IMG/VR virus record: IMGVR_UViG_3300000956_000076
Span: 1 to 25,774 of that record
Reading direction: 5' to 3' (one strand)
DNA from: a virus
Length of the DNA stretch: 25,774 nucleotides
In this document: positions 1,785-19,874 of the stretch, in pieces
How positions within the stretch are numbered: position 1 is the stretch's first letter
Layout: every line of letters starts with the position of its first letter
Notes under the pieces: model-generated
Databases searched by the model: none
Seen by the model: the letters and a program-made list of their open reading frames with translations, nothing else
Told to the model about the DNA's origin: nothing
Translations under genes and position numbers: made by a program

Positions 1785-1790
1785 GAATAT

Positions 1791-1835
1791 GGGGCCAAGC
1801 GTTAACTTACCGTCTTGGCCCCCTCCTCGTTTTTT
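1791..1835 (-). promoter_or_regulatory. Programmed -1 ribosomal frameshift signal
   Basis: On the minus strand the heptamer A AAA AAC occupies 1835-1829 in the correct zero-frame phase (codons TCA AAA AAC). After a 6-base spacer a perfect 9-bp stem follows: GGGGCCAAG at 1822-1814 pairs with CTTGGCCCC at 1799-1791 around a 14-base loop. Slippage by -1 continues as CGA GGA GGG into the open frame that ends at 1572. Heptamer, spacing and stem all fit known frameshift signals in tail chaperone genes. Confidence 0.88.
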
Positions 1836-2185
1836 GAGGCATACCGCTCAAGCCCCTGCATGGAATCATAAAGAGTCTTTCGAATCTCGCGCGCAAATAC
1901 CTGAACCTGCCCAACCGTGGTGTTACTCCTGAACCATTTTTCATCAAATTCGGGGTGGCTATGTTCACAAAAAAGGGCACATAGTTTGACAGCGAGATCG
2001 AAACCTTCCTCGGCTTTCTTCAAGTCGTTTTCAAGTTCTTTTGGTTTCATTGCGAAAAGCTTTTCAGCAATCTCGTTTACCCGGAACGTGATCGCTACCG
2101 GGATAAACGAAATATCAATTTCTTTGCCACCGAGCTTTATCTTTCGAGATTCGGTTTTGAGTATGTCGAGGTCAATTATGTCCAT
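1802..2185 (-). CDS. Tail assembly chaperone (G-type)
   Basis: The protein has 127 residues and starts at ATG 2185, four bases after the tail tube stop. It is acidic and helical with a LysLeuGlyGly-Lys-Glu-Ile start of the fold (KLGGKEIDISFIP). Length and position between tail tube and tape measure genes fit the first tail assembly chaperone, which binds the tape measure protein and recruits tube subunits. The last codons carry the frameshift heptamer, so two products are expected: this 127-residue form and a longer 204-residue form. No catalytic motif is present or expected. The call rests on synteny and the frameshift signal more than on sequence identity. Confidence 0.85.
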   Translation of the reverse strand: MDIIDLDILKTESRKIKLGGKEIDISFIPVAITFRVNEIAEKLFAMKPKELENDLKKAEEGFDLAVKLCALFCEHSHPEFDEKWFRSNTTVGQVQVFAREIRKTLYDSMQGLERYASKNEEGAKTVS

Positions 2186-2188
2186 GGC

Positions 2189-2743
2189 TTAGACCTGCTT
2201 AACGATGCTAAAGAGCTGAGCACCTGCGGTAAGGGTCGTATCGACTTCCGCACTGATCGTAATGGGCATGACGTTGATGGGGTCGGCGTCATTGTCAGAT
2301 TTTGCGGTGACCTGAAATCCGCTTTTGATGAAGCAGCGGAACAGAGTGACAACAAGCGTTTTCGTAGCCCCGGAAACCGTTGATGTATTCGTGAGCTTGA
2401 AAATCTTCGGGGTTATCGCAACGTTGCCACCACCAGTTACGGTATAAACCGTACCACCAGTAGTAAGCGTGATCGCACCACCCATGATGGTAGTAAGCAC
2501 CGAAAGATCGAACTCGATCAGTTCCATATCAACCGAGAACGCCTCAGTAGAAATACCTTCTACCGGGTCAGGCGAGTTGCCGGACTGGATGTCGTAGTAC
2601 TCGGGTGTGTATCCCCACGAATTGACCATTCCGGCACCGAGATTCGTATAGCTACCGGCTACCGTGGTCTGAGCCACTTCGATCTTGTAGTTACCGGTTA
2701 CAAGGTTGGCGCTTGTGGCCCTGCTTGTTTGATAATTAGGCAT
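2189..2743 (-). CDS. Major tail (tube) protein
   Basis: The protein has 184 residues and is rich in Thr, Val and Gly with predicted beta strands (GGAITLTTGGTVYTVTGGGN), in keeping with the tail-tube fold shared by long-tailed phages. It lies between the tail terminator and chaperone genes, the standard position for the tube protein, whose rings form the DNA conduit. A segment near residues 45-65 (YTPEYYDIQSGNSPDPVEGI) resembles the loop after the first strands in many tube proteins. The start is ATG 2743; the stop is directly followed by the chaperone start. No extra Ig-like domain is visible at the C terminus. Confidence 0.78.
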   Translation of the reverse strand: MPNYQTSRATSANLVTGNYKIEVAQTTVAGSYTNLGAGMVNSWGYTPEYYDIQSGNSPDPVEGISTEAFSVDMELIEFDLSVLTTIMGGAITLTTGGTVYTVTGGGNVAITPKIFKLTNTSTVSGATKTLVVTLFRCFIKSGFQVTAKSDNDADPINVMPITISAEVDTTLTAGAQLFSIVKQV

Positions 2744-2757
2744 TTAGCTGCCCTCCC

Positions 2758-3180
2758 TTATGATACCGTTTCCACACGGTAGACGATTTGCAAATCCAGT
2801 GGCGCGTTGAATGTTTGTTCATCCGGCTCTGGTATAAGTCCCTGATCTGTTATGGATGCGCGAGAAAAGTCGAACGTTGTCGGTGCGGTGCCCCAAATCC
2901 CATATGTAGTCATGCCTTCTGAACCGCCCCACAATTCTTTGACCTGTCTGGCAAGTTCCATTGCGGCTGATGCAGTTGCGGCCCGGCAGTTGATCGAATA
3001 GATTTCCGATTCCATGCCGTAATGGCGGTTGCCAGACAGTTTGAAATAGTTGATCGCGGGCAATGTTGAAGTTGACGGCCTGAGCCCGTGGTAGACTCGA
3101 CCGGAAGTGCCAGCGCCCACGATTGCCGTAATAGCTGTTGTGCTCAGCATAGCAAGCCCGATTGCATCATGCGCTTTCAC
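2758..3180 (-). CDS. Tail terminator / tail completion protein (DUF3168-like)
   Basis: The 140-residue protein begins with a helix (AHDAIGLAMLSTTAITAIVG) followed by RVYHGLRPSTSTLPAINYF and then YSINCRAATASAAMELARQVKEL. This is the layout of DUF3168-type tail terminators: an N-terminal 'positions and values' helix, a Pro-rich strand, and a helix after the YxINCRA strand. Such proteins form the ring that ends the tail tube and meets the head. ATG at 3180 overlaps the upstream gene's TGA (ATGA), so it is translationally coupled to the gp10-like gene. Confidence 0.75.
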   Translation of the reverse strand: MKAHDAIGLAMLSTTAITAIVGAGTSGRVYHGLRPSTSTLPAINYFKLSGNRHYGMESEIYSINCRAATASAAMELARQVKELWGGSEGMTTYGIWGTAPTTFDFSRASITDQGLIPEPDEQTFNAPLDLQIVYRVETVS

Positions 3181-3590
3181 TGTAGAAATTCCTTAAACAC
3201 AATCTTGCTTTCACGTTCGACAAGCGTGAGTGACCGACCTTCTGCTAAGGCAAGTGCTGGACGAAGGAATGGCTGTGCATTCGTTTTAGATGTGCCGAAT
3301 TCCATCCACGTGCCGTGCATTACTGCCGTGCCAACCCATGCCTCAAGTTCTTCTTGAGGCTTGCCGATCTTGTCAATTTCAAGAGCCGGTGATTCTACAT
3401 CCGTACCCTTAACTCGCGATTGAGTTGTTATACTTCCTGCAAGCTGGCCGGTATCGATTGGCGCAAGAGCCTTAGCCTGACCTTCGACAATCAAACCAAC
3501 CCCGAAAATGCTTTGCCCGACAGCTTTCTTGCCGAGTATTTTTACTTCTTTACCATTCCATACTTTTTCAATTGTTGTTTTGAAAGCCAT
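3177..3590 (-). CDS. HK97 gp10-like head-tail joining protein
   Basis: The protein has 137 residues. Two hallmarks of the HK97-gp10-like family are visible: AKALAPIDTGQLAGSI at about residues 35-50, and WMEFGTSKTNAQPFLRPAL at about residues 96-114. The family lies at the neck of siphoviruses, acting in head-tail joining or tail completion. It follows the head closure gene with a shared base and overlaps the tail terminator gene by four bases. Length matches the family's usual 120-150 residues. Confidence 0.85.
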   Translation of the reverse strand: MAFKTTIEKVWNGKEVKILGKKAVGQSIFGVGLIVEGQAKALAPIDTGQLAGSITTQSRVKGTDVESPALEIDKIGKPQEELEAWVGTAVMHGTWMEFGTSKTNAQPFLRPALALAEGRSLTLVERESKIVFKEFLQ

Positions 3591-3925
3591 CAGACAATCC
3601 TCTTCATGCCGACAACCATGAGTTGGCCGCGATTGGCTACGTCGTCAGGTATCCCGGTTAGCTGATAGGTCTTGCCTGCATATGTGGCGTAGGCATCGGT
3701 ATTCAAAATCCCATAATCACCGACTTCAAACGCCAGCACGTCTGTGCTTTCCTTTGCGATTTTGTCAGAGAGTAAACGGCTATTCGAACCGGGCTGCCAG
3801 ATACTTGCGCGTGCTACCGTGGTAGTCGTTGCCACTGTTGAAGTATTACCTAAACCATCATTCGAAATAGTTTCGCGAGTTATCGTAACGGCATTGATAA
3901 GATTTAAGGCATTTCTCAAACTCAT
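3590..3925 (-). CDS. Head closure (stopper) protein
   Basis: The protein has 111 residues and is dominated by short beta strands: RASIWQPGSN, TDVLAFEVGDYGIL, YATYAGKTYQLTGIPDDVANRGQLMVVGMKRI. The pattern of an N-terminal helix, a region listing the rate or value (VARASIWQP), and a C-terminal strand ending in a basic residue fits stopper proteins of the SPP1 gp16/HK97 gp7 type, which close the connector after packaging. The place between adaptor and gp10-like genes supports this. The start overlaps the adaptor gene's stop (ATGA). Sequence similarity is weak, so synteny carries the call. Confidence 0.68.
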   Translation of the reverse strand: MSLRNALNLINAVTITRETISNDGLGNTSTVATTTTVARASIWQPGSNSRLLSDKIAKESTDVLAFEVGDYGILNTDAYATYAGKTYQLTGIPDDVANRGQLMVVGMKRIV

Positions 3926-4482
3926 CGTATACTCGCTAATTTGAATACTGATAGCGCGTTTACCATTGATTGCGGGTAATTGCTTGTTTGATCGCTACCC
4001 GTTTCCCTTGTTTCAGACCAAGGACCAAGTGTAATTGATTTGACATTTGCATCCTGATTGGGACGGATGTCCACGTCAAACGCGACCATCTGAGCCGCTA
4101 TCTGTTTCAAACCTTCCGGCCATTGCACAACCGAGAAGTAAATTGTCCTGCCTGAAAGTTCGGCAATTGCGGTAGATGTAGTCACAAGGGTCATAACTGA
4201 TGTGGTTACGGTCGAAACTGTTTTGTACCCGTCATTTCTATGGGAATTTGAGATATATACCTCGTCCCCATTCATGAATCCGAAATCTTCCCAATGTGAC
4301 CCTATGGTTATCGTTCCACCTGAACCGCCTGAGAAATCCGCAAGGCTTGCAATGCACAGATCGGATACGAAATAGTTGTTTGTGATTAGGTTGATATTTC
4401 TTACCACCGAATCAATTTGCAGTTGAGTCGGTGTTCCAGTGATCGACGTGAAGGTAGAAATTTCTGCCGGAGTCAATAGCAC
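3922..4482 (-). CDS. Head-tail connector (adaptor) protein with inserted beta domain
   Basis: The protein has 186 residues. The N-terminal 35 residues (LTPAEISTFTSITGTPTQLQ, then a helix with NINLITNNYF) and the C-terminal helices (WPEGLKQIAAQMVAFDVD, then NALSVFKLASIR) look like the helical adaptor that attaches to the portal ring. Between them, at about residues 46-115, is a Gly/Thr-rich beta stretch with the pattern FMNGDEVYISNS-NDGYKTVSTV, a GD...S..NDG..tV motif that recurs in unrelated phage structural proteins. It is therefore longer than a typical 100-110 residue adaptor by about one small domain. Start ATG 4482 follows the hairpin at 4504-4519. Confidence 0.65.
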   Translation of the reverse strand: MLLTPAEISTFTSITGTPTQLQIDSVVRNINLITNNYFVSDLCIASLADFSGGSGGTITIGSHWEDFGFMNGDEVYISNSHRNDGYKTVSTVTTSVMTLVTTSTAIAELSGRTIYFSVVQWPEGLKQIAAQMVAFDVDIRPNQDANVKSITLGPWSETRETGSDQTSNYPQSMVNALSVFKLASIR

Positions 4483-7865: not shown

Positions 7866-8049
7866 GATTACGCCTTTCGAAAAGCGCTACTTGGGCTGTC
7901 ATGAGTTTCATTTCTGTTTCGCTGCAATTCATCCAAATGAAATCCATTCTATCCTGGATTTTTCGCTTCTTTATTTCATCATTAGATAAAGAGTATTCCT
8001 CTAACAGTGCGGCATGGCGTGACAATGGTTCATAAGGTAATTTCGGCAT
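7849..8049 (-). CDS. Small protein between portal and MuF-like genes
   Basis: A 66-residue basic, helical protein (MPKLPYEPLSRHAALLEEYS at the start, MTAQVALFERRNRGKTA at the end). ATG 8049 is preferred to the longer GTG start at 8073. It overlaps the portal gene by 20 bases and the MuF-like gene by 17, which makes it part of one coupled head operon. No family is recognised. Met and Lys content and its place suggest a small head-associated or coupling protein, but this is not established. Confidence 0.62.
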   Translation of the reverse strand: MPKLPYEPLSRHAALLEEYSLSNDEIKKRKIQDRMDFIWMNCSETEMKLMTAQVALFERRNRGKTA

Positions 8050-9691
8050 CAACTTCACTCGCTTTGACCGCACTCGACGGCACTAATGCATTAAAATCAA
8101 TCGCTGGTCTAAGCATCTTCTCCACAATGTCACGCGTAATTCCAGGCAATGCGATTAAAATAAGATCGACCGCGCTTTCAAATGGTATTTCTTTCTTGGA
8201 AACTGACTCTACCATCTGAACCATTGATGCTAATTGAGCACCATTCAGTTGCAAATTAGCCACAGCGGCATCTGTTGAACCATCTTCAGCCATGCCAGTC
8301 CCACCCTCTATATCTGGTATCATGGCAAGTTGTTCTTCGGCTTGTCGATCAAGCTCTGCTTGAACATCCGGGATAACCGAGTCAGGCATAATCTCCGCAA
8401 TGACTTCGGCACTGAATCCGGCTTGTTTCATGATATTGGCTGTTTCTGCCAATTCTTTCAGGTCAAACGCAACGTTTCTCTTATGGGTAATGACAATGGT
8501 TCCAGGGTCTTGAGTCTGAACGCTTTTGGTCGTTTCCCAAATCTTGTTTATGAGCCTGATACGTTCATAAAGACCCGTATCAAAGTCAGCCTCGGCACTC
8601 GATACAACATTCTCGAAGTCGAACATAAGGCGTTCAATTGCGGCGCCAGATACATCCGTGAATTGCGCAAAGTCAGGCACAGACGATTGCGTATGAATCT
8701 GTTTCGCGAGAGTCTTTTCCATCCACTCAACGAAATCTTTGGGTATATCTTTGGTGAGGAAACTTACATCTTCTTTATTTTCAAGGTTTTCAAATACTCT
8801 GCTCTTGCGCAGCCTGGCAAGCCATTGCCAAGCTTGATTGTCTGGCTGACCACCATTAGGCACAGGCTTACGCCCGCCAATGCCCATTTTGACAAGACGC
8901 AGATAAGCATTCGCGAATCGGTCAAATTCTATGATTGAACCAGATATCAAATCGTCATAATCATCAATAAGCGGGATAACAGGCTGAATTATGCCCAAGC
9001 AATCATCACCGAAATAATAGGGTACTATGGGCACATCCTGAAAGAAATTCCTATACATCGGTCTTTCAAGATCAGGCGTAATTGCCCATTCATTCGAATT
9101 CTCGGCACGTTTCCGGTCGAATACCTCTACGGTTTCTTTGTAATAAACCTCTACCTTAAACCAGTCGTCCGTTATCGGATAATAACGAATGCCTATTTTC
9201 TTTTTAGGCTCTGGTGAATAGTCATAAAGCAAAATGATTTCTCGGGGGTCAACATAGAAGAATCTCGGCACAGCTTCTTTTGTAAGCTCTTCACCAATTT
9301 CGGTGTCAACGTAAACAAGCTCATATGAAAGCCCAAAAATACCGGTATTCCGACCATCCATCGCGGTCTTTATCGGCTCGTTATTCAGCTTGAAGTTTTC
9401 CATAAGATGTTTGAAATATGTCTGGTCTTTTTCTTCGGTTTTGTAGGTTATGTACTTAGGCCGATACGCATATCCGGTGAATGTGGTAATGATCTTGCGA
9501 CCAAACGGTACAGGCGTCCGATTATCAGGATTGCCCTCTTGCACTTTAGGCTTGCTCAGAATCTTGGTGTTATTGCCTTTGTAATAGTCCCAAAGCTTTG
9601 TGAGCCTTTGGCACTCGGCATAATGTTCGGTAATGAACTTTTCTATTTGCTTAGCGTCTAAATGTTCAAGATTCGTCTTGCGGTAATTCAT
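8030..9691 (-). CDS. Portal protein (SPP1 gp6-like)
   Basis: The protein has 553 residues. It has the SPP1-type portal layout: an N-terminal helical part (LWDYYKGNNTKILSK near 33-47), RTPVPFGRKIITTFTGYAYR near 58-78, DGRNTGIFGLSYELVYVD near 110-128, PRFFYVDPREIILLYDYS near 142-160, and an acidic, helical C-terminal clip/crown part rich in Ala/Glu/Met. The dodecameric portal ring is the DNA channel and the docking site for terminase. The ribosome binding site is AAGGAAA, 8 bases before ATG 9691. Here the portal is separated from terminase by about 8.9 kb of accessory genes, whereas in most phages the two are adjacent. Confidence 0.93.
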   Translation of the reverse strand: MNYRKTNLEHLDAKQIEKFITEHYAECQRLTKLWDYYKGNNTKILSKPKVQEGNPDNRTPVPFGRKIITTFTGYAYRPKYITYKTEEKDQTYFKHLMENFKLNNEPIKTAMDGRNTGIFGLSYELVYVDTEIGEELTKEAVPRFFYVDPREIILLYDYSPEPKKKIGIRYYPITDDWFKVEVYYKETVEVFDRKRAENSNEWAITPDLERPMYRNFFQDVPIVPYYFGDDCLGIIQPVIPLIDDYDDLISGSIIEFDRFANAYLRLVKMGIGGRKPVPNGGQPDNQAWQWLARLRKSRVFENLENKEDVSFLTKDIPKDFVEWMEKTLAKQIHTQSSVPDFAQFTDVSGAAIERLMFDFENVVSSAEADFDTGLYERIRLINKIWETTKSVQTQDPGTIVITHKRNVAFDLKELAETANIMKQAGFSAEVIAEIMPDSVIPDVQAELDRQAEEQLAMIPDIEGGTGMAEDGSTDAAVANLQLNGAQLASMVQMVESVSKKEIPFESAVDLILIALPGITRDIVEKMLRPAIDFNALVPSSAVKASEVDAEITL

Positions 9692-10375: not shown

Positions 10376-11209
10376 CTATTTTTCAGCAATACAAATTAGT
10401 GTGTCACAAAAGCCGAGTCTCTGCATGGTTTTAGCATACTCCAGTTTCAACATCGGTGACAATAGAAAGTCCCATCCACGCATACCGCCCGGCTTTTTCT
10501 CTTTCAACCAGTGAAGATGGTTGTTTATCGAATACCGTTGGAGTCCTTCAATGCTCACGTTTTTGAATCCGGCCATTTCAACAAGTTTTCTAAGCGTTTC
10601 CTCAGTGTACAAAACAGTATGATATTCACTCGTAAATGTGTGTGCCTTAAACTCAGGCAATTCGAGAAAGAACAGCAAGAAGTCACGCGCGCTTGGTATT
10701 TCGATGATTATCTGACCACCTGTTCTAAGATGCGATTTCAATTCAACCATTTTTTCAAGCGGATTTGTCAAATGTTCGAGAACGTGAAACATAGTTATCG
10801 TGTCGTATTCGCCGTCGATGCCGTTTATGTTCAAGCCGTCTCGCCGCAATGCTTCGGCTGCATCCTGTTGGATTTCATGACCAAATAATTTATTTGCCCA
10901 CGGTTTACATAGCGTCAAAAATCCACCGTTGCCACATCCGAAGTCAAGAACATCTTTACCAACAATGAAACTTCTGAACTGTTCGAATCGCCTTTTATCG
11001 TCAAGGATAGTTTTCTTTCGTGCTTCCTCAAGTGACGCGGTGCCCCAATAAGAAAGCGATTCGATGCGAGAATAGTCAATCGGCGGCTCATGATCCATGA
11101 ATATTACGCCAGTCTCAACATCCTTTAGCATTCTGACTTTTGAGTTTTCGAATTCCACTTCAAGTTCGTTGCCAGTTATTAGGCCGATGGATTGCAGATA
11201 TTCTTTCAT
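10376..11209 (-). CDS. Class I SAM-dependent methyltransferase
   Basis: The protein has 277 residues. Motif I VLDFGCGNGGFL (87-98) binds S-adenosylmethionine, and FHVLEHLTNP (141-150) is the usual acidic/His post-motif of the Methyltransf_23/11 type. GGQIIIEIPSARDF is the strand after motif III. This type often methylates sugars or glycan ends in surface polysaccharide clusters. It is the last enzyme of the sugar cassette, overlapping the preceding gene by ATGA, and a 59-base gap separates it from the Mor-like gene. O- or C-methylation of the cassette's sugar is inference; the substrate is unknown. Confidence 0.88.
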   Translation of the reverse strand: MKEYLQSIGLITGNELEVEFENSKVRMLKDVETGVIFMDHEPPIDYSRIESLSYWGTASLEEARKKTILDDKRRFEQFRSFIVGKDVLDFGCGNGGFLTLCKPWANKLFGHEIQQDAAEALRRDGLNINGIDGEYDTITMFHVLEHLTNPLEKMVELKSHLRTGGQIIIEIPSARDFLLFFLELPEFKAHTFTSEYHTVLYTEETLRKLVEMAGFKNVSIEGLQRYSINNHLHWLKEKKPGGMRGWDFLLSPMLKLEYAKTMQRLGFCDTLICIAEK

Positions 11210-11529
11210 GTTTTAAACCGAGCCTCGAAAATTTCAGCTCTTTCAATGCCGTCTACATATCCGTATGTCACATATCCAAGTTCGTGCATTTTGTTGATAA
11301 ACTCTTTTTCAACAGCAATGTAAGATTTCGTGACCAAATGCCCGCAACAACATTCAATTGTTTTTATTCCATAGCGCCACAGGAAGGCTATTTCCTCAAT
11401 CATACACGCGTCTATATTAACGAAATTTCCGTACGGTTTCCATGGCGGCTGTATTGCTGGTTGCCAGTCATAATTACCAAACGCCTCTCTACCAGGGTGA
11501 AGGCATTCATGAACTTTGAATCCGTTCAC
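11206..11529 (-). CDS. Small CCCGH-motif protein
   Basis: The protein has 107 residues. The core IKTIECCCGH followed by a YIAVE strand resembles small phage proteins with a Cys3-Gly-His element that may bind a metal. The N-terminus HECLHPGREAFGNYDWQP has further His/Cys. GTG 11529 overlaps the cytidylyltransferase TGA (GTGA), and its stop overlaps the methyltransferase ATG. It is one of the small genes that alternate with the sugar enzymes. Function is unknown. Confidence 0.78.
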   Translation of the reverse strand: MNGFKVHECLHPGREAFGNYDWQPAIQPPWKPYGNFVNIDACMIEEIAFLWRYGIKTIECCCGHLVTKSYIAVEKEFINKMHELGYVTYGYVDGIERAEIFEARFKT

Positions 11530-12263
11530 TTCATCCCACCCTTATTGTCAATCCAGTTTTGGCGGCGGAAGGCGTTTATATCTACAATATCGTTTCTGCG
11601 ATTGAGAAATTCCAATATTTCGAACAGAGGCACTATATTAGTGTCTATTCCCATTTCATGAAAAACTTTTCCAAAAAATTGATAGTCTTCGTGATAATCG
11701 AGAGTCAAGCGTATTTCATGATTGTAAAATATAGAGTTCTCGACATCCAAAAGCCCAACTCTATCAGTTATCGGCCTAATATATTGCATGAGGTCTTCGC
11801 TGACATCGCCGTCTTTTAGGTCAACGGCTTTCTTGAGAGTAGATGTTCTGACAGCCAATGTAAAAGAGCCCACAATCATATCAGGCGAAACCGTCACGGC
11901 ATCAAACCATCTTTCTTCAAGTTGCCTTAGCCCGAGCTCCATCAGGTATGGATCGCAGAATGGGTCGTCTCCATCCATTGAGGCAACTGCTTCTATACCA
12001 TAAAAAGCAGCGGCCCGATAGATTCGATCAAGCCTATCGTTCAAGCTACCGCCGTAGACTTTTATACCCTTGGCAATCGCAATATCTGCTAATCGCCTAT
12101 GATCTTCGTCATTCGGTATCGCGAGTATCACTTCGTCAACCTTAGTTGCAAGCGCCCGGTCAATCAGATGCTCAAGCACCGTCTTGCCGTTCAAAGGAAG
12201 TAGAATCTTCTCAGGCAATCGGCTTGAGTTTAGGCGGGCTGTTATGATTACGGCGGTTTTCAT
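11526..12263 (-). CDS. SpsF/NeuA-like cytidylyltransferase
   Basis: The protein has 245 residues. The N-terminus carries the nucleotide-binding signature IITARLNSSRLPEKIL (6-21) of CMP-sugar synthetases (CMP-NeuNAc, CMP-Kdo and SpsF types), where the conserved Arg, Ser and Lys contact CTP. A second acidic motif SMDGDDPFCDP (95-105) is where the metal-binding Asp is expected. The C-terminal part (RLTLDYHEDYQFF near 200) is typical of the SpsF branch. The expected reaction is sugar acid plus CTP to CMP-sugar. Its place two genes after the NeuB-like synthase supports a nonulosonic acid substrate. The exact sugar cannot be read from sequence. Confidence 0.87.
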   Translation of the reverse strand: MKTAVIITARLNSSRLPEKILLPLNGKTVLEHLIDRALATKVDEVILAIPNDEDHRRLADIAIAKGIKVYGGSLNDRLDRIYRAAAFYGIEAVASMDGDDPFCDPYLMELGLRQLEERWFDAVTVSPDMIVGSFTLAVRTSTLKKAVDLKDGDVSEDLMQYIRPITDRVGLLDVENSIFYNHEIRLTLDYHEDYQFFGKVFHEMGIDTNIVPLFEILEFLNRRNDIVDINAFRRQNWIDNKGGMK

Positions 12264-12484
12264 TGTGGTATACCCTGCCTGAAAACGATTGATTTATCGT
12301 CTCTTTGAATCATTACAATATCCATGCCTTTTGAAATCTCGACAGATATAGCATATGCCAACTGAGATAAAGAAATACTTCTATATGGCCCGTCAAGGTC
12401 TCTATAAACCGGCATAATGAAATCCGGCTCTTTGGGCATGCCGTCTGTTTTAGGTAAATCCATGATTCTTAGAACCTTACCCAC
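12260..12484 (-). CDS. Small hypothetical protein between NeuB-like and cytidylyltransferase genes
   Basis: The protein has 74 residues and starts at GTG 12484. AGGAG lies seven bases upstream, within the end of the NeuB-like gene, and the two genes overlap by eight bases. The longer frame reaching back to 12637 only mirrors the NeuB-like coding sequence. The sequence (EPDFIMPVYRDLDGPYRSIS, DIVMIQRDDKSIVFRQG) does not resemble the SAF/antifreeze-like domain missing from NeuB here. It looks like a small single-domain phage protein. Function is unknown. Confidence 0.75.
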   Translation of the reverse strand: MGKVLRIMDLPKTDGMPKEPDFIMPVYRDLDGPYRSISLSQLAYAISVEISKGMDIVMIQRDDKSIVFRQGIPQ

Positions 12485-13304
12485 GTAGTTTCTCCTTAGC
12501 CTTCTGTTCGCCATCATAAACCCGCTTGACTCCATCGCCAAGCATGGCCGGTACATCGTCAAGCCTTTTGCGCAGCATATCCATTGCGTGAACCTCAAGA
12601 CTCGCCGCCTGATCGCTGCCCCACATTCTGTGGTCAAGAGTAATATGCCGCTCGATTACCTCGGCACCAAGCACGGCAGCTGCGACACTTGGCTCCAGGT
12701 CAATTTCGTGGCCTGAATAACCAACTCGCTGGCCATATCGTTCTTTTAGCCATGGGATACAGCGCAAGTTCAGTTCATTTACCGGACAAGGGTATGTCGA
12801 ATTCGTGTGAAACAAAGTCAAACGTTCATTTGAGTATTTAAGGATAAGGTTGACTGCCTCGTCAATTTCCTCGGTCGTACTCATGCCGGTTGAAAGATAG
12901 ATCGGAATGCCAGACTTCGCGCATGCTTCAATCAATTGAGAATCGGTCAGCTTTGCGCTCGGAATCTTGATAAATGGCACCGGATATTGAACGAGAAAAT
13001 AAAGTGACGGAATATCCCAAACGCTCGCGGTCCAGCGAATAGGCTTTTCGGCGCAGTATTTGTTTATGTAGTCGTACTCTTGCTGGCCGAATTCCATCTT
13101 CTGCTTGTATTCGAGATAGGTCATCTGGCCCCACGGCGTTTGTTTGGGTTGATTCCTTTGTGATTCAGGAACGCAAAGTTCAGGTGTTCGCTTCTGAAAT
13201 TTGGCAACGTGCCAGCCTGTTGCGAACACGGCGTCAATTAGCCGCTTCGTAATTGCCATGTCAGCGTTGTGGTTTATGCCTATTTCGGCGATTAGTTCAA
13301 TCAT
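12477..13304 (-). CDS. NeuB-family sialic/nonulosonic acid synthase, TIM barrel only
   Basis: The protein has 275 residues. Family motifs in order are AEIGINHNADM (6-16), AKFQ (35-38), IKIPSAKL (112-119), STGMSTTEE (138-146), HTNSTYPCP (166-174), VGYSGHE (194-200) and IERHITLDH (217-225), with MWGSDQAAS after it. His199 and His220 match the two metal-binding His of NeuB. The enzyme condenses phosphoenolpyruvate with an N-acyl amino sugar to give a nonulosonic acid. Family members are usually about 335-350 residues, with a C-terminal SAF (antifreeze-like) domain; here the protein ends right after the barrel at KEKLRG. GSDQ rather than GPDH points to the SpsE-like branch. AAGGA lies six bases before ATG 13304. 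Confidence 0.92.
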   Translation of the reverse strand: MIELIAEIGINHNADMAITKRLIDAVFATGWHVAKFQKRTPELCVPESQRNQPKQTPWGQMTYLEYKQKMEFGQQEYDYINKYCAEKPIRWTASVWDIPSLYFLVQYPVPFIKIPSAKLTDSQLIEACAKSGIPIYLSTGMSTTEEIDEAVNLILKYSNERLTLFHTNSTYPCPVNELNLRCIPWLKERYGQRVGYSGHEIDLEPSVAAAVLGAEVIERHITLDHRMWGSDQAASLEVHAMDMLRKRLDDVPAMLGDGVKRVYDGEQKAKEKLRG

Positions 13305-13387
13305 TTTGATTCCTTATCCAGCAATAAGCCTGTTCTGTGGCTTGTAAACTGGTTTAGTACCATGCAATTTTGGGTTCGAAAGCAAAA

Positions 13388-13576
13388 TCATTCTTCCAGC
13401 TCGATTTCATGAACCTCAAGCTCATTATCAAAATCAGCCTCGAATTCATCCTTCTTGTAGTCATTCCATATCTGTTTTGCATGCTTATTGGCCTTTGCCT
13501 TTATCGAAAAGGCTTTGTCTGGAATCATATTGCCATCCCCATCATGAACACAAACTACAAAGATAGTTTTCACCAT
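13388..13576 (-). CDS. Small acidic hypothetical protein
   Basis: The protein has 62 residues. ATG 13576 lies nine bases after a GGAGG inside the dehydrogenase gene and overlaps its stop by seven bases. The N-terminal half is a beta strand plus helix (VKTIFVVCVHDGDGNMI, then KANKHAKQIWNDYKKDEFEA), and the tail is very acidic (EADFDNELEVHEIELEE). No family is recognised. It alternates with the sugar enzymes like the other small cassette genes. An 83-base gap to the NeuB-like gene follows and holds no clear promoter. Confidence 0.72.
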   Translation of the reverse strand: MVKTIFVVCVHDGDGNMIPDKAFSIKAKANKHAKQIWNDYKKDEFEADFDNELEVHEIELEE

Positions 13577-14274
13577 GCCGTCCACCCTCCATCAACAGGA
13601 TACACCCCGCCAGTGCAATAACTGGCCTTGTCGCTAATCAAGAACTCGACGAGTCCGCAGATTTCTTCAACCTTTGCCATTCGGCCCATTGGTGTGTGTT
13701 CTGCATAATCAAATTTGAAATGAGCAGATTGCCCATTCTCAACGCCACCAGGAACTATGCAGTTAACTCGCATATCCGGTGCCCAATGAGTAGCGAGGTG
13801 CTTAGTCAATTGAATGACGGCGGCTTTACTGACTCCGTAGGCTATATGTTTCTCGCCATCGCCATACATGTCAGGGTGCGGAGAACCAAGCCCATATGTA
13901 GAACTGAAATTGACGATTGAGCCTTTGGGATTATTTCGCTTGAACTCGCGGCAGACTGAGAAAAGTGCGGTCACGTTGGTTTTTAGGTAGGCATCGAAAG
14001 AATCGAGTGAGATACCCATGATTCTGTCGCCAGTTGATCGCGGCTGCCAGTGATTGTTTAGGGCGAAGCAGTTGATTAGGGCGTCGTATTCACCCATCTC
14101 GAAAAAATGGCCAACTGTCATTTCGTCGTTAAAGTCCATGTCGGATATATCAAGCCCAGTGACTTCGTAAGCGCAATGATACCCAGTTGGGTCAACATAC
14201 ATTTCGTATTCGGAAAGATATTCAACAACCGCCTTCCCAATAAGCCCTTCTGAGCCGGTGACTATGATTTTCAT
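13570..14274 (-). CDS. Short-chain dehydrogenase/reductase, PtmA-like
   Basis: The protein has 234 residues. The NAD(P)-binding motif TGSEGLIG (6-13), the active-site Ser in NFSSTYG (122-128) and the catalytic pair Tyr146-x3-Lys150 (YGVSK) are all present. RVNCIVPGGV (169-178) and the C-terminal GGVYPVDGGWTAW are typical of classical SDRs. SDRs with an NFSSxYG motif near NeuB, cytidylyltransferase and DegT genes occur in nonulosonic acid loci (Campylobacter PtmA). The substrate cannot be determined. It overlaps the 2-TM gene upstream by ATGA. Confidence 0.88.
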   Translation of the reverse strand: MKIIVTGSEGLIGKAVVEYLSEYEMYVDPTGYHCAYEVTGLDISDMDFNDEMTVGHFFEMGEYDALINCFALNNHWQPRSTGDRIMGISLDSFDAYLKTNVTALFSVCREFKRNNPKGSIVNFSSTYGLGSPHPDMYGDGEKHIAYGVSKAAVIQLTKHLATHWAPDMRVNCIVPGGVENGQSAHFKFDYAEHTPMGRMAKVEEICGLVEFLISDKASYCTGGVYPVDGGWTAW

Positions 14275-14501
14275 TCGTCTTTACCGTTCCCAAAATGGGC
14301 ACCTACTGCACCAGAAACAGAGGCCAAGATAATTGTAATTAAAATACCAAATCTGTTCTTGCTTTCAATTCTATCTGGCGTGTCTTCTATTGGAGATACC
14401 GCCCAGTACATAAATAGAGCCAGTATTATGACACAAATAACGCCAATAGTGCCGAAAATAATTGCAAATTTATGCGTTTTTACAAATTCGCTTATTTTCA
14501 T
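14271..14501 (-). CDS. Two-helix membrane protein in the sugar cassette
   Basis: The protein has 76 residues. It has hydrophobic segments at about 12-34 (FAIIFGTIGVICVIILALFMYW) and 50-69 (RFGILITIILASVSGAVGAHFG), a charged loop between them and a short charged tail. Both ends overlap the neighbouring enzymes by ATGA. Holin-like in shape, but its place between aminotransferase and dehydrogenase makes a role in the cassette, such as anchoring or a flippase-like accessory role, equally possible. No family is recognised. Confidence 0.78.
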   Translation of the reverse strand: MKISEFVKTHKFAIIFGTIGVICVIILALFMYWAVSPIEDTPDRIESKNRFGILITIILASVSGAVGAHFGNGKDE

Positions 14502-15631
14502 CCCAAAACACTCCTCAAAATCTCCGCCTGCTTCTTAGCGTCCTCAATATCCAGCCAGCTCGTTTTGAACTGCATAATCTGAGGCTGTATTCGTTCAGCT
14601 ACTGGACAATTGGCAGGATGCGGGCGGTCACCGATTCTGCTTTCAATTATCCCCGCAAATGCAGGCTCGTCGAATGGACAAGACCATGCGCCGTAAAATG
14701 GATGGCCACCCGCTGCAATGAAGCGCTTTCTAAACTCTTGCCAATCGCCTTCGTATTTAGCCGCGAAAGCCCAATAGGAATTGCCCTCAATAGGCTGCGT
14801 TCGCATATCATCTATTGCTGCATCTATCATTCGTAAACCTGATTCGCGCCGGGCCTTGCATAATTCGTCAACCCTTTCAAACTGCGCTAAAGCAACAGCC
14901 GCCTGCAATTCACTCATGCGATAGTTCCAGCCAATTTTAGCATGGCGTTTGTAACTTGGCGATTGAAATATTTCCTTATCACCCTTGACCCTGCCCGATT
15001 CGGCAGTTAGCCCGATAAATCCGTGACCGCCAATTCGACGAGCAATAAGCGCAAGGTTTTCGTCATCGGTAATAAGCATACCGCCCTCGCCGCAAGATAT
15101 GTGCTTGCTGTTCTCGAAACTGAATGAACCGAATGCGCCGATAGTACCTGCGTATTTGCCTTTGTAAGTCGCGAGTAAAGCCTGCGCGCAATCCTCAATA
15201 ACCGGCACGCCAAATGCCTTCAACGCGTCCATATCGCAAGGCAGGCCATAAAGGTGTACGCCGATAATCGCTTTAACGTCTGGCGTCATCTTTCGGGCAA
15301 CGTCTGTCGGGTCAATATTGAAAGTCGATTCTTGAACGTCCGCGAAAACAGGTATCGCGCCCGCGTGAATGACAGCGGCAGAAGTCATTATAGGACCAAG
15401 AGCCGGGACTATTACCTTGTCCCCACGCTTTACGCCGACCGCGACCAAAGCAGCATGCAAAGTCGATGTGCCGCTATTGAAAGCAATCGCGTATTTGCTG
15501 CCCATCTTCTTTGCGAACTGTTGCTCAAGTTCGTGCGTCCAACTACCCGAGGTCGCAGTCAGATGCTCGCCTTCCAATACTTTTGTCAGGTATTTTAGCT
15601 CGTTGCCGCCGAAGCGTTTGATAGTTTTCAT
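14498..15631 (-). CDS. DegT/DnrJ/EryC1/StrS-type PLP sugar aminotransferase
   Basis: The protein has 377 residues from ATG 15631, which overlaps the upstream TGA (ATGA); the longer start at 15661 is less likely. Family marks are FNSGTSTLHAAL (51-62), the PLP-ring Asp in IEDCAQA (145-151), the Schiff-base Lys176 in SFSFENSKHISCGEGGM (169-185), and GWNYRMSELQAA near 229-240. These enzymes transfer an amino group, usually from glutamate, to a nucleotide-keto sugar. In nonulosonic acid loci the homologues are PseC, LegC or SpsC. No partner 4,6-dehydratase is present in this window, so the keto-sugar would come from the host or from outside the window. Confidence 0.93.
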   Translation of the reverse strand: MKTIKRFGGNELKYLTKVLEGEHLTATSGSWTHELEQQFAKKMGSKYAIAFNSGTSTLHAALVAVGVKRGDKVIVPALGPIMTSAAVIHAGAIPVFADVQESTFNIDPTDVARKMTPDVKAIIGVHLYGLPCDMDALKAFGVPVIEDCAQALLATYKGKYAGTIGAFGSFSFENSKHISCGEGGMLITDDENLALIARRIGGHGFIGLTAESGRVKGDKEIFQSPSYKRHAKIGWNYRMSELQAAVALAQFERVDELCKARRESGLRMIDAAIDDMRTQPIEGNSYWAFAAKYEGDWQEFRKRFIAAGGHPFYGAWSCPFDEPAFAGIIESRIGDRPHPANCPVAERIQPQIMQFKTSWLDIEDAKKQAEILRSVLG

Positions 15632-15861
15632 TTCGCAGCCGCCAACAAGACATCTGTCCATTTCGAAATCATGAATGCGGCGAGTTCGACCACATCCTCT
15701 TTGCTTATAGAATCCTTGTCATAACTCTTTCCGACTATCAATTCGCTATCGTAGCCAGTTCTAAGCTCGCCAGAAATCAGATCGAGCCCAACGGTTGAAC
15801 TCAGGCAATAGACTTTCTTTCCGTTAGACCATTCAAGTTCGTCATTGTCGTTTAGCTTCAT
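15628..15861 (-). CDS. Small acidic hypothetical protein
   Basis: The protein has 77 residues (MKLNDNDELEWSNGKKVYCL at the start, helix VVELAAFMISKWTDVLLAA at the end). The ATG at 15861 lies 13 bases after the DUF115 stop; the longer TTG start at 15867 is less likely. Overlap with the aminotransferase is by ATGA. No family is recognised. It is the first small gene in the alternating enzyme/small-gene series. Confidence 0.72.
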   Translation of the reverse strand: MKLNDNDELEWSNGKKVYCLSSTVGLDLISGELRTGYDSELIVGKSYDKDSISKEDVVELAAFMISKWTDVLLAAAK

Positions 15862-15873
15862 TACCAACCTGCC

Positions 15874-17409
15874 TTAAACTTTATCCGCACTTGTCTTACC
15901 AACAATCGACGGCAAAACCGCCTCTTTCGCATTCATCGCGGTACCCGACGACAGAATCACATTCGGGTTGATTTTCCTCATCTCTGGCGCATCATCAATC
16001 TGATTGAGTGGCCCGTTAATATTCAACAGCTTGCGGAACTTCTTGATATTCGCCTGCATATCTATCGGGTTGCGTTTCAGGCTCTTTTGATGGCACCGCT
16101 CGCATTCTTTATTCGAGAAATCGTCATCGTTTGGAGCTTGGCCAATACCGCCGCACCCCGGCGTCTGGCACTCCCAATTACGATATGTCCCGCGCATGAA
16201 CGAAATCAATTCACCCTCATGCCGATTGCCGTTAGGGTCAATCCAGTCTTTGAGAGGACGAAGTGCTTCTACGAACTGATACGCTTTGCCAACGTTGACT
16301 ACGAACGCGCCTACCTTGGCCAAATACCCTTCGGCTTCTCTGATAATAAACTCGTGTGTGGTCCTCTTAAATCCTTTGCCTTGCGTCGCGATTACCTTTT
16401 CGATATCAGCGTAAGGGATTTCAGTCATGATGCCTTTGTCGCATGAATAGACATCCTGCAAACTCAATCGCCACGCGGTAATCATGTTCTTTTTGTAAAA
16501 CAGCATGATCGGGTTTGTTTTAAGCCCGTTCGCCGAGTCAATCCAGATAGGTTTCTTTTCGCCTTCGGGTGTTTCTACCGTTTCGTCTGGATTGTAGCGG
16601 TGTTCCTCTGCCTTCCACTTAGTCGGCACGATAACATCCGGTGCGTTGCCTACCTTTAGCAATTGCTCGGGCTTTTCGACAATGTAGTTTGTAAACCTTT
16701 CTTTGCCATCAATAATCCCGAAGTCACAACCGGCCAAAAAGATTCGACCATACCCAAGAATCTGAGCGGCGAACATCTGGCAAGGCGGCGAGCAAGCGAA
16801 TTGCGTAATCTCGGTACGAATGATGTAGTCGAAGAATGCATCGCGGCAGATACCGTCAGGGCTCGCGAGATATTCCGGGTCTTCCTCGTTCTTGGGCCGT
16901 CGAACCGTGAACATGCGCTTTTGCTGTTGGCCGTAATAGGTTTCTCGCGATCCAAGATTCTGGATATAGAGTAGCATTTCATTCGGCCATTTTTCAATCA
17001 ATGTGGGCCAAACTCCGGGTGTTGTAATCAACTTTGTTCGAGTCTTTGACCAATCGATACCAGCAATTTCTCCCCAACAATTGAACGGGTCAAGCGCCAG
17101 AATGTGAGTCGGTTCAATCCCGTGATAGACAAGTGAAAGAGCGTGCGAGGTCGTGCATATGATGCCTCCCTTCCAATCTTTCAGGTAGGGCAGGATTCTA
17201 TCGAGTGATGGGCCAGAGCCAAGAATGAAGCAGGGATCGCCATTGACTTTTGGCTCTTGATTAATATCTCTTGCGCGTCCTTCGTTATAAGCTTCAACGA
17301 TGACGTGATGATTGTAAGCGGAGTTATGCTCCTCATGTATCACTTGCTTGCCGAGTGTATTTTGGTTATAGGCGCTGGAATCGGTCCTAACTTCGAGCTC
17401 AGTGGGCAC
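15874..17409 (-). CDS. DUF115/Maf-like protein (MptE-like fold), candidate glycosyltransferase
   Basis: The protein has 511 residues and starts at GTG 17409, with AAAGG upstream. The DUF115 (MptE-like) domain is marked by CFILGSGPSLD (60-70), ICTTSHALSLVYHGIEPTHILALDP (84-108) and GRIFLAGCDFGIIDG (221-235). The family includes the motility accessory factors (Maf/PseE) that attach nonulosonic acids to flagellin Ser/Thr. The C-terminal region adds a four-Cys site, C414, C419, C436 and C439 (CQTPGC and CERC), absent from the core family. It is the first large gene of the cassette, four genes before NeuB-like synthesis. Transfer of the cassette's sugar to protein is inference; the phosphokinase alternative from the family name cannot be excluded. 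Confidence 0.82.
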   Translation of the reverse strand: MPTELEVRTDSSAYNQNTLGKQVIHEEHNSAYNHHVIVEAYNEGRARDINQEPKVNGDPCFILGSGPSLDRILPYLKDWKGGIICTTSHALSLVYHGIEPTHILALDPFNCWGEIAGIDWSKTRTKLITTPGVWPTLIEKWPNEMLLYIQNLGSRETYYGQQQKRMFTVRRPKNEEDPEYLASPDGICRDAFFDYIIRTEITQFACSPPCQMFAAQILGYGRIFLAGCDFGIIDGKERFTNYIVEKPEQLLKVGNAPDVIVPTKWKAEEHRYNPDETVETPEGEKKPIWIDSANGLKTNPIMLFYKKNMITAWRLSLQDVYSCDKGIMTEIPYADIEKVIATQGKGFKRTTHEFIIREAEGYLAKVGAFVVNVGKAYQFVEALRPLKDWIDPNGNRHEGELISFMRGTYRNWECQTPGCGGIGQAPNDDDFSNKECERCHQKSLKRNPIDMQANIKKFRKLLNINGPLNQIDDAPEMRKINPNVILSSGTAMNAKEAVLPSIVGKTSADKV

Positions 17410-18451: not shown

Positions 18452-18480
18452 AAAAAGCCACCTGCTGGCAGACAGGTAGC
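18452..18480 (-). terminator. Intrinsic terminator between terminase and the accessory operon
   Basis: On the minus strand GCTACCTG (18480-18473) pairs with CAGGTGGC (18464-18457), with one T-G pair, around an 8-base loop, followed by TTTTT (18456-18452). It lies about 48 bases after the predicted start point of the promoter at 18535-18563 and directly before the next ribosome binding site, which is unusual for a simple operon end. Confidence 0.82.
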
Positions 18481-18534
18481 GAAAGGAGGTAGGAGAGGAA
18501 ACAAAGAACCGAAAAAGAAGGAGGTTGCCAGACA

Positions 18535-18563
18535 AGCATAAGCCCACATTACCCAATTGTCAA
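18535..18563 (-). promoter_or_regulatory. Strong sigma-70-type promoter for the accessory/late operon
   Basis: On the minus strand a perfect TTGACA (18563-18558), a 17-base spacer and TATGCT (18540-18535) follow directly after the terminase TGA. The predicted start point is near 18528. The leader to 18435 is pyrimidine-rich and carries CCTCCTT twice (opposite 18518-18524 and 18483-18489), followed by the terminator. Confidence 0.7.
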
Positions 18564-19874
18564 TCAGAATCCTAAGTCTTCGGTTGAGAAGTCGGAGATG
18601 CCGCCGTTGTATCGTTCGGGGTTATAGAAACATAAAAGCAAAGCGTCAGCCTTGTCAGGCGACTTGCCGCAACGTTTCTTATATTCTCGCTTAGGCTCGA
18701 TCTTACGCTGGTCTTTGTTTGTATAAGCATATTGACGTCCTGAAAGCTCACCCATAAGTCGCTGATCGTTCGGAATATCAACTTCGTTTATAGGAAAGTT
18801 AAACCACATTTCGTCAGCAACGCTTGTGTATTTCACATCATCGATAGGCTTGCCACCGAAATTGACCATAATCACATTCGCGCCTAAATCAACCAACTTA
18901 TCCGATACACCGCCGCCTACGCCTGAGTCGTCAACCTTTATCGGGATCGAAGAATTTCTTTTAGCCATGTCCCAAGCCTCGCGCGCAGTTCGTTGTGTAT
19001 CCTGTCCGCTGAATATCTTTTCTTCAACTACTTTCATGCCGATCCGCCGGTACATAACTGTGTCGTCATCACCAAATCGGGCAACGTCTATGCCTATTTC
19101 TTCTTCACCTTGTGGCTCGGCTATTTCACGATCCATCGCGGCACGAATTGCTATACGCGAAAGCACAGCCTTTTGACCTTGACTTCTCGGGCTCCCATTC
19201 CAGACATGTTCCGCCAAATCAGGATCGCGCTTGAAGTCCTCTTCCATTTCTCGTTGAAGTTCTTTAGTCCACCATGGATTATCGATAGCTCCGGGTTGTA
19301 ATGGGACAATCAAACAGTCTTCACGCGGGGTTATGCAAAAACGTTCAAAAACAGGATCGCGCTCAAGCTCACGATTGAAAGATATCCAGACCTCAGAACC
19401 AGGCTTTCGAATAGTCGGTATAAGAATGTCCCATGAATCATTGCTAACTGTGCTTGCTTCTTCAACCCAACAATAATCAACGTCTTCGAACCCTTTTATG
19501 CTGAGGCTCGCGCGAAGATTTTGAAGCCCGCGAAAGTGAAAGGTCGAACCAATGGGCGAGCTGATTATCTCGTCTGTGATCTGCCATCCCTTATACCCGA
19601 GCCGCATGATTTGCTGCTTGATTATTCGATGTACTGACTCCGGCATTGACAACTGGATTTCACGCGTACATAAAACACGGATGCATTTAGCCTGTGCGAA
19701 CTGGACAAGCAAACTCGCTATTGACCAAGTCTTGGCACCGGCACCACGGCCACCATATGCGATTTTAAGTCTGAACGGATCGCGGAATTTTTCAAGTTTC
19801 GGGCTTACCTTCAATAATTGCTCGAATTCAAGCAATTGAAGTAGCTCTATATCCTCATCCGTCGTTGCTGGCAT
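18564..19874 (-). CDS. Terminase large subunit
   Basis: The protein has 436 residues. The ATPase part has a Walker A-like GGRGAGAKT (41-49) and Walker B VDYCWVEEAS (132-141). The RNase H-like nuclease part has EIGIDVARFGDDDT (259-272; Asp263), VDDSGVGGGVSDKL (314-327) and a C-terminal SPDKADALLLCF. This pattern fits the Terminase_3/6 type that packages DNA through the portal. Walker A has an Ala before the Lys instead of the usual Gly, and one extra residue. It overlaps the small subunit gene by 20 bases. The downstream gene is separated from it by a promoter and a terminator, so terminase forms its own transcription unit. Confidence 0.93.
   Translation of the reverse strand: MPATTDEDIELLQLLEFEQLLKVSPKLEKFRDPFRLKIAYGGRGAGAKTWSIASLLVQFAQAKCIRVLCTREIQLSMPESVHRIIKQQIMRLGYKGWQITDEIISSPIGSTFHFRGLQNLRASLSIKGFEDVDYCWVEEASTVSNDSWDILIPTIRKPGSEVWISFNRELERDPVFERFCITPREDCLIVPLQPGAIDNPWWTKELQREMEEDFKRDPDLAEHVWNGSPRSQGQKAVLSRIAIRAAMDREIAEPQGEEEIGIDVARFGDDDTVMYRRIGMKVVEEKIFSGQDTQRTAREAWDMAKRNSSIPIKVDDSGVGGGVSDKLVDLGANVIMVNFGGKPIDDVKYTSVADEMWFNFPINEVDIPNDQRLMGELSGRQYAYTNKDQRKIEPKREYKKRCGKSPDKADALLLCFYNPERYNGGISDFSTEDLGF

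Follow-up and report, generated by a model that had tools for sequence, protein, structure and literature searches.

Between the terminase and portal genes of an uncultured tailed phage lies a region that is best read as a module for glycosylating a protein with an ulosonic acid made from host precursors, a virion protein being the most likely acceptor. We put the probability of this reading at about 0.6. The aminotransferase and the short-chain dehydrogenase/reductase (SDR) would prepare or tailor an amino-sugar intermediate, in dependence on host precursors; a NeuB-family synthase lacking the SAF domain would combine the intermediate with PEP into a 3-deoxy-ulosonic acid, and the cytidylyltransferase would turn this into a CMP-sugar. 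A DUF115 protein would then move the sugar from the CMP-sugar onto a protein in the cytosol; the likeliest acceptor is a virion protein encoded by the head genes next to the module. The methyltransferase may add a methyl group to the sugar. The exact sugar, the enzymatic activities, the order of the steps and the acceptor (virion or host surface) are what we infer; the gene content, the protein families, the intact PEP/metal site and the recurrent company of synthetase, DUF115 and head genes can be read directly from sequence or fold.

Organization of the Region

The window, that is, the whole stretch of DNA analysed, comprises 25,774 nucleotides (IMG/VR virus record IMGVR_UViG_3300000956_000076). 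Its relevant features are:

18564-19874, minus strand: terminase large subunit (TerL), left landmark (phrog_2, 1.9e-41)
18457-18480, minus strand: terminator-like hairpin and T-run directly 3' of terL (9-bp stem, 5 G-C pairs, TTTTT tail)
15874-17409, minus strand: DUF115/MptE-like protein, 511 aa, Maf-like putative CMP-ulosonate transferase (Pfam PF01973, E = 2.9e-12)
15628-15867, minus strand: small ORF, 79 aa, overlapping the aminotransferase start (no Pfam, PHROGs or NCBIfam match)
14498-15661, minus strand: DegT/DnrJ/EryC1 sugar aminotransferase, PLP Lys186 (Pfam DegT, 4.9e-77)
14271-14501, minus strand: small ORF, 76 aa, strongly hydrophobic over one stretch and probably a membrane protein (maximum 19-residue hydropathy 2.95)
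13570-14274, minus strand: SDR, Ser125-Tyr146-Lys150 (Pfam adh_short_C2, 6.6e-31)
13388-13585, minus strand: small ORF, 65 aa (ORF list)
12477-13304, minus strand: predicted short SAF-less NeuB-family 3-deoxy-ulosonate synthase, metal ligands His199/His220 (Pfam, 1.1e-67)
12260-12463, minus strand: small ORF, 67 aa if begun at ATG 12463 (the ORF list begins it upstream, at TTG 12637)
11526-12263, minus strand: CTP_transf_3 cytidylyltransferase (CMT), predicted CMP-ulosonate synthetase (Pfam PF02348, 1.6e-18, 67.7 bits)
11206-11529, minus strand: small ORF, 107 aa (weak match to phrog_12958)
10376-11209, minus strand: class I SAM methyltransferase (Pfam Methyltransf_23, 1.2e-20)
8030-9691, minus strand: portal protein, right landmark (phrog_64, 2.8e-73)

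All cassette genes thus lie on one strand in the gap of about 8.9 kb between TerL and the portal gene, as a preliminary description of this DNA had it, and PHROGs confirms both landmarks. The reading frames are intact and tightly packed, and most neighbours overlap or abut, so that the set reads as a coupled operon. The same description had proposed expression together with the late structural genes. The hairpin after TerL (18480-18457) speaks against simple co-transcription with the terminase and makes membership of the cassette in the terminase transcript uncertain; the region holds 15 terminator-like sites in all, about as many as chance would give (12.1 expected). Neither an Rfam match nor repeats flanking the cassette were found. 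The five small ORFs between the cassette genes were absent from the earlier gene list. The 76-aa ORF is the only one with a membrane-like stretch, none being found in the main cassette enzymes.

A Putative Maf-Like Transferase

The DUF115 protein is closest to the Maf flagellin glycosyltransferase, ahead of MptE, by profile search and by predicted fold. Its MptE-like/Maf_flag10 domain scores 47.1 bits against a Pfam cut-off of 34.6, and its profile finds Maf 5mu5 as the best PDB match (E = 2.7e-6; MptE, 0.13). Foldseek with the AlphaFold model (pTM 0.82) also places Maf first (1.8e-7; MptE, 4.6e-4), and the weaker matches include the CMP-using GT42 and GT29 sialyltransferases. The Maf-like family assignment made earlier is therefore upheld. 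The better Maf scores and the neighbouring CMP-sugar genes led us to reject an MptE (pterin) function.

With the Maf nonulosonate transferases (PF01973; Magnetospirillum Maf 5mu5, Clostridium CbMaf) the phage protein shares a GSGPSLD motif, a second Gly-Asp motif region and its place among CMP-ulosonate genes. Only the core domain is alike, at about 16% identity and with TM-scores of 0.26-0.32. Unlike Maf, the phage protein is shorter, has no detected match to the Maf N-terminal domain and ends in a zinc-ribbon-like motif; the Maf three-domain architecture (N-terminal Rossmann-like, C-terminal helical) is absent, and the 5mu5 match covers the central part only. The neighbours of the phage gene are head genes, whereas those of Maf are flagellin genes.

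The C-terminal motif (Cys414/419/436/439), whose four cysteines are conserved in 18 of 18 aligned DUF115 proteins, would also fit a DNA-sugar transferase whose tail contacts DNA, the ulosonate or amino sugar then decorating the phage genome. Phage glycosyltransferases frequently have DNA as their substrate (PMC12619734). Against this, the likeness to Maf and to sialyltransferases points to protein or glycan acceptors, and among the genes examined, which come from mostly partial genomes, we noticed none for base hydroxylation or hypermodification. Known DNA glucosyltransferases use UDP-type donors, which also counts against DNA decoration, and we regard it as very unlikely.

Proposed Synthesis and Activation of the Sugar

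Profile searches placed every enzyme in the family that the preliminary description had named, and the expected catalytic residues are present except at one position of NeuB. The synthase matches the full NeuB TIM-barrel profile (PF03102, 228.5 bits), and its AlphaFold model (pTM 0.91) retrieves Neisseria NeuB first (2.7e-22), ahead of DAHP and KDO8P synthases. The PEP/metal site is intact: E7, K35, Q37, K113, S116, H199 and H220 are all present, the counterparts of E25, K53, Q55, K129, S132, H215 and H236, which we take to be the PEP/metal residues of Neisseria NeuB. The protein (275 aa) ends after the barrel, and the C-terminal SAF domain with the substrate arginine is missing. The equivalent of Glu134 is Lys118, at a position replaced or variable across this NeuB clade; the NeuB_NnaB equivalog score is 218.7 vs. 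a cut-off of 399.65, and the nearest solved synthase is Leptospira 6ncs. The exact product is not fixed, because NeuB is of the short SAF-less type, and it may be other than a standard nonulosonate. Given the missing SAF domain and Glu134 equivalent, the sialic-acid-like nonulosonate proposed earlier is too specific, and 3-deoxy-ulosonate is the safer term.

In the cytidylyltransferase, previously called SpsF/NeuA-like, the RxxSxRLPxK loop and the Asp ligands are present, and R10, S13, R15, K19, D97-G98-D99-D100 and D189 are invariant in the CMT alignment. Its PDB matches are 6oew (8.4e-16) and then KdsB, and it groups with the CMTs of bacterial cassettes. For the aminotransferase, the SDR and the methyltransferase, Pfam confirms the families, and a residue check confirms the aminotransferase lysine (Lys186, or Lys176 as first numbered, with the start taken at Met11) and SDR Tyr146/Lys150. 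LegC and PseC are the best NCBIfam models for the aminotransferase, below cut-off, and its homologues in bacterial and viral cassettes are 41-55% identical. SDR homologues adjoin NeuB in five loci (L003, L004, L017, L028, and L053), and methyltransferase homologues occur in the bacterial cassettes L025 and L027.

The product could instead be an octulosonate (Kdo- or 8-amino-Kdo-like), with the SDR and aminotransferase acting on the ulosonate as KdnB and KdnA do and the remaining steps as proposed above. The loss of the SAF domain and Glu134 equivalent fits this, as do the best NCBIfam matches of the window CMT, which are KdsB-type, and the pairing of a NeuB with a GmhA-like isomerase in L075. 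An almost full-length alignment links the aminotransferase profile to KdnA 5k8b; other sugar aminotransferases, however, outscore KdnA, fold and sequence prefer NeuB over KDO8P synthase, and relatives carry PseB-, PseC-, PseH- and PseF-like genes. We consider an octulosonate unlikely.

As in the Pse and Leg pathways (PseB-C-H-G-I-F; LegB-C-H-G-I-F), the window has a DegT aminotransferase, a NeuB-type synthase and a CMP-transferase. It differs from them in that the synthase is SAF-less and all matches fall under the equivalog cut-offs. The dehydratase, acetyltransferase and hydrolase (hydrolysing epimerase) are absent from the window by ORF list and Pfam; the preliminary description had recorded this absence, which contradicts its term "complete". 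What stands of the making, activating and attaching proposed there is that a NeuB-type 3-deoxy-ulosonic acid would be made, activated and transferred in a Maf-like way; the profiles and the genes of relatives support this.

Recurrence in Related Viral Contigs

The DUF115 family was found in 18 other viral contigs, with a CTP_transf_3 gene immediately upstream in 16 and head or packaging genes within reach in 16. The relatives were found by alignment-based scans, single-protein queries being insufficient: single-sequence scans with DUF115, portal and cytidylyltransferase gave no matches. No DUF115 relative was found in INPHARED phages (tblastn), among 50,697 phage records or on plasmids, and the profile found nothing in eight bacterial genomes with NeuB relatives and 99 genomes of one of their phyla. 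NeuB has only three relatives in INPHARED, all below 45% identity. A DUF115/glycosyltransferase fusion (L024), matching in the GSGPSL motif region only, was left out of the count. In a portal-family scan, 14 of the 16 relatives having at least 6 kb upstream carried module genes, a figure that may be too high, since contigs bearing DUF115 supplied the portal query. A tie of the module to the terminase was rejected: terminase relatives mostly lack the module in the stretch examined, whereas portal and head-gene relatives have it.

Two relatives have larger, pseudaminic-acid-like gene sets as judged from sequence. In L077 the row is DUF115, PseB-like, PseC-like, mini-NeuB, PseH-like, CMT, methyltransferase and WbuX-type amidotransferase, thus including the dehydratase and PseH-like gene absent here; L020 is similar. 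As in the Pse pathway, PseB-, PseC-, PseH-, PseI- and PseF-like genes occur among L077, L020, and L022. One relative's synthetase has PseF as its best NCBIfam match (81.9 bits), the next being a KdsB-type model (33.9). The synthetase-DUF115 pair recurs beside head genes, and the sugar-making modules differ between phages. We read the CMP-ulosonate synthetase and the Maf-like transferase as a conserved core, to which each phage adds its own sugar-making module.

Virion or Host Surface as Acceptor

The recurrence of the two-gene core beside head genes points to glycosylation of a protein by these phages, probably of one of their own proteins. Maf enzymes use CMP-nonulosonates, and one accepts both CMP-Kdo and CMP-Neu5Ac (PMC11339370). 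Alternatively, the target may be the surface of the infected or lysogenic host cell (its LPS, capsule or flagellin), and one purpose of altering it could be to keep out superinfecting phages. Flagellin is the known Maf target (PMC11339370; PMC13317340), one small ORF of the cassette (14271-14501) encodes a membrane-like protein, and prophage enzymes, EpaA/EpaB and O-acetyltransferases, have been demonstrated to change capsular nonulosonates (PMC12053666; PMC6586298). These phage-encoded enzymes of known target resemble the present system in altering nonulosonates; unlike it, they modify a host-made capsule sugar, with no synthesis, activation or transfer (PMC12053666; PMC6586298). The module, however, lies repeatedly beside terminase, portal and capsid genes, Maf-type transferases are cytoplasmic protein glycosyltransferases, and Pfam finds no flippase, polymerase, lipid-linked starter or O-antigen gene in the cassette. 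A host-surface target is thus rather unlikely, and a virion protein is preferred.

Glycosyltransferases encoded by mycobacteriophages are likewise thought to decorate virions (Freeman et al., 2023, via PMC13313380 and PMC12619734); as far as PMC13313380 and PMC12619734 state, neither CMP-ulosonate synthesis nor a Maf-like transferase is involved there. Until now, Maf-type ulosonate glycosylation has been a matter of bacterial flagellins, and phages have been shown to affect nonulosonates on the host capsule. The comparative finding that is new, at the level of gene neighbourhoods, is the DUF115 family with an adjoining CTP_transf_3 gene beside head genes across viral contigs. We suggest tentatively, at slightly less than even odds, that an uncultured tailed-phage lineage has its own Maf-type CMP-ulosonate glycosylation, turned from flagellin to virion proteins; transferase and synthetase would form its constant core, and the sugar modules would be interchangeable and could vary virion surface chemistry. 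If so, charged sialic-acid-like coats would be a further means by which phages modify the exterior of the virion, adsorption, stability and recognition would be affected, and a phage lineage would swap whole sugar pathways around a kept synthetase and Maf-like transferase. DUF115 and the synthetase form a defined, testable protein pair.

Origin of the Sugar-Making Module

Of the insertion into a late operon proposed earlier, the part concerning the core pair does not hold, the pair being recurrent in the head-gene region of this lineage; the sugar-making module, a bacterial-type AT-SDR-NeuB-CMT-MT cassette (AT, aminotransferase; MT, methyltransferase), does look acquired. The closest homologues of the aminotransferase, NeuB and CMT are bacterial or come from other viral contigs, and L081 and L082 have nothing between terminase and portal. 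Both observations would also fit an assembly error that joined host DNA to a viral contig, or a transient insertion that does nothing for the phage. Such an origin is extremely improbable given the intact, tightly packed frames and the 18 other contigs, most with head genes and the adjoining synthetase; chimerism or contamination was rejected because the module recurs, which largely refutes it. The cassette resembles SAF-less NeuB cassettes of Nitrospirota, Desulfobacterota, Omnitrophota, and Bacteroidota, with homologues of all five enzymes at about 30-64% identity. L025, the only bacterial locus for which a detailed annotation was made, lies amid polysaccharide genes, whereas the phage cassette is tied to a DUF115 transferase. 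Several of the cassette homologues are adjacent to each other in the same bacterial loci.

Gene content of the window

The window is the whole IMG/VR record (25,774 bases), possibly part of a genome only. Its genes lie on the minus strand and include those for the large terminase (TerL), portal, minor head protein and HK97-type major capsid protein. The features needed here are:

18564-19874, minus strand, TerL
18480-18457, terminator-like hairpin immediately 3' of terL (9-bp stem, five G-C pairs, T-run)
14271-14501, ORF of 76 aa within the cassette, flanked by SDR and aminotransferase and containing a strongly hydrophobic segment
10077-10316, small protein located between portal and methyltransferase, with a match to phrog_836 (late transcriptional activator, 1.7e-10)
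8030-9691, minus strand, portal

Pfam confirmed the family of each gene reported between TerL and portal in the preliminary description: MptE-like/DUF115, DegT aminotransferase, SDR, NeuB-family synthase, CTP_transf_3 cytidylyltransferase (the synthetase) and class I methyltransferase. Catalytic residues of these enzymes are present, one NeuB position excepted; the aminotransferase lysine named there as Lys176 is in place, and is numbered Lys186 if an upstream start is used. Translational coupling is suggested by short overlaps, a few bases long, between most neighbouring genes. The gaps are occupied by small ORFs, and that at 14271-14501 may encode a small membrane protein. Homologues of the phrog_836 type also lie near the module in comparison loci L022, L065/L066 and L069.

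A conserved core beside head genes

By tblastn, the window DUF115 matched none of 50,697 phage records and none of 72,556 plasmids. The family was recovered when IMG/VR was scanned with an alignment: it occurs, mostly at 38-46% identity, in 18 other viral contigs (near-copies collapsed; loci annotated with custom-built profiles). A CTP_transf_3 gene overlaps DUF115 or ends at most 377 bases upstream in 16 of the 18, and 16 of the 18 have terminase, portal, minor head or capsid genes within reach. This pair, the synthetase and a putative Maf-like transferase (DUF115), is taken as the core of the module. The best NCBIfam model for the L022 synthetase is PseF, a pseudaminic acid cytidylyltransferase (81.9 bits; next model, 33.9). 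A portal-family scan yielded 16 loci that extend 6 kb or more upstream of portal, and module genes were found in 14 of them, a fraction that may be inflated because the query derived from DUF115-bearing contigs. Taken as a whole, terminase relatives mostly lack, in the stretch covered, the module, which tracks the portal and head genes and not terminase. Terminase and portal adjoin directly in L081 and L082; the window's 8.9 kb therefore lies where these relatives have nothing between the two genes.

Upstream of synthetase-DUF115-terminase in L022 are ABC-transporter genes (1204-4053; a solute-binding protein and two permeases), possibly host flank or a phage-borne transporter. A collagen-like repeat protein lies just downstream of portal in L020 (12996-13745). 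In a Clostridium genome (L057), a short NeuB and a synthetase lie close to a pair of proteins that the phage DUF115 profile matches, an arrangement that may link phage DUF115 to bacterial Maf loci.

Likeness of DUF115 to Maf

Compared with PDB sequences, a DUF115 profile built from 18 family members matched the Maf glycosyltransferase 5mu5 first (2.7e-6), against 0.13 for the pterin enzyme MptE. The AlphaFold model (pTM 0.82) also matched 5mu5 first (1.8e-7) and MptE-type HPPK second (4.6e-4); among the weaker matches are sialyltransferases of families GT42 and GT29, whose donors are CMP-sugars. The TM-scores of these matches are low (0.26-0.32), so the likeness to Maf is that of a common core domain and not full-length. 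Close to its C-terminus the phage DUF115 has four invariant Cys resembling a zinc ribbon; within the reach of the comparison, Maf has no such tail. Maf enzymes move nonulosonate from CMP-donors onto Ser/Thr of flagellin, and for CbMaf, Neu5Ac and Kdo donors serve as well (PMC11339370).

The sugar

The window NeuB is of the barrel-only, SAF-less form. For its confident model (pTM 0.91), Neisseria NeuB and Leptospira 6ncs are better matches than DAHP and KDO8P synthases. Glu134 of Neisseria NeuB aligns with Lys118; as the PEP and metal residues are retained and this position is variable throughout the clade, bacterial members included, the replacement points to a different aldose substrate rather than decay. 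The aminotransferase profile aligns over nearly its full length with KdnA (8-amino-Kdo transaminase), with other sugar aminotransferases scoring higher. On this evidence from NeuB form, residues and fold and from the aminotransferase, we predict the product to be some 3-deoxy-ulosonic acid, a nonulosonic one being likelier than an octulosonic one.

Sugar modules that differ among relatives

The sugar genes added to the core vary among relatives, most others showing synthetase and DUF115 only:

L077, contiguous with DUF115: PseB-like dehydratase (281.6 bits), short PseC-like protein, 209-aa mini-NeuB, PseH-like acetyltransferase, synthetase, methyltransferase and WbuX-type N-acetyl sugar amidotransferase (a family that includes Campylobacter PseA)
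L020: a similar set, without acetyltransferase or visible synthetase
L075: NeuB, B12-type radical SAM protein and GmhA-like isomerase

The mini-NeuBs (L020 6708-7319; L077 12803-13432) have 203-209 aa, clearly shorter than usual, are 55% identical and are kept in two phages. The B12-binding radical SAM protein and isomerase of L075 (7110-8962), between NeuB and the synthetase-DUF115 pair, suggest another ulosonate precursor route. The window synthetase clusters with those of bacterial cassettes (L025-L028) and of other viruses, not with the phage synthetases, and its NeuB clusters with the same set, separate from the NeuBs of L075 and L024; by this grouping, sugar modules seem to have been gained at least twice. 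Three longer viral contigs (L003, L004 and L017; 34-154 kb) have the same cytidylyltransferase-aminotransferase-SDR-NeuB order, but over the stretch covered no relative of the window's DUF115 or of its head genes was seen; L003 and L017 also have a second aminotransferase and dehydratase-type genes.

Proposed pathway and target

The analysis shows the genes, their families and residues and their recurrent linkage; in the pathway that we infer, host intermediates would feed the aminotransferase and SDR, NeuB would condense the intermediate with PEP, the synthetase would form the CMP-sugar, and DUF115 would transfer the sugar residue in the cytosol, methylation possibly following. A virion protein is the most likely target, given the gene position and the absence of flippase, polymerase and lipid-linked starter genes; a host surface target ranks second. 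Precedents are mycobacteriophage virion glycosylation (Freeman et al., 2023, as cited in PMC13313380 and PMC12619734) and, on the host side, prophage enzymes altering capsular nonulosonates (PMC12053666; PMC6586298). The neuB and neuA genes were reported in viromes long ago (PMC3877843), so a viral NeuB by itself is not new. A literature search covering few subscription papers found no description of a phage module combining CMP-ulosonate synthesis with a Maf-like protein: both the chemistry and the enzyme family are familiar, and the phage setting is one for which we found no earlier report.

Transcription after terL

Terminator-like sites across the region are near chance in number. Given the stem, G-C pairs and T-run of the hairpin 3' of terL, we would not claim a single transcript for terminase and cassette. 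A promoter-like site (10/12) lies at 18563-18535, just upstream of the hairpin; together (18457-18563) they could be a regulatory leader.
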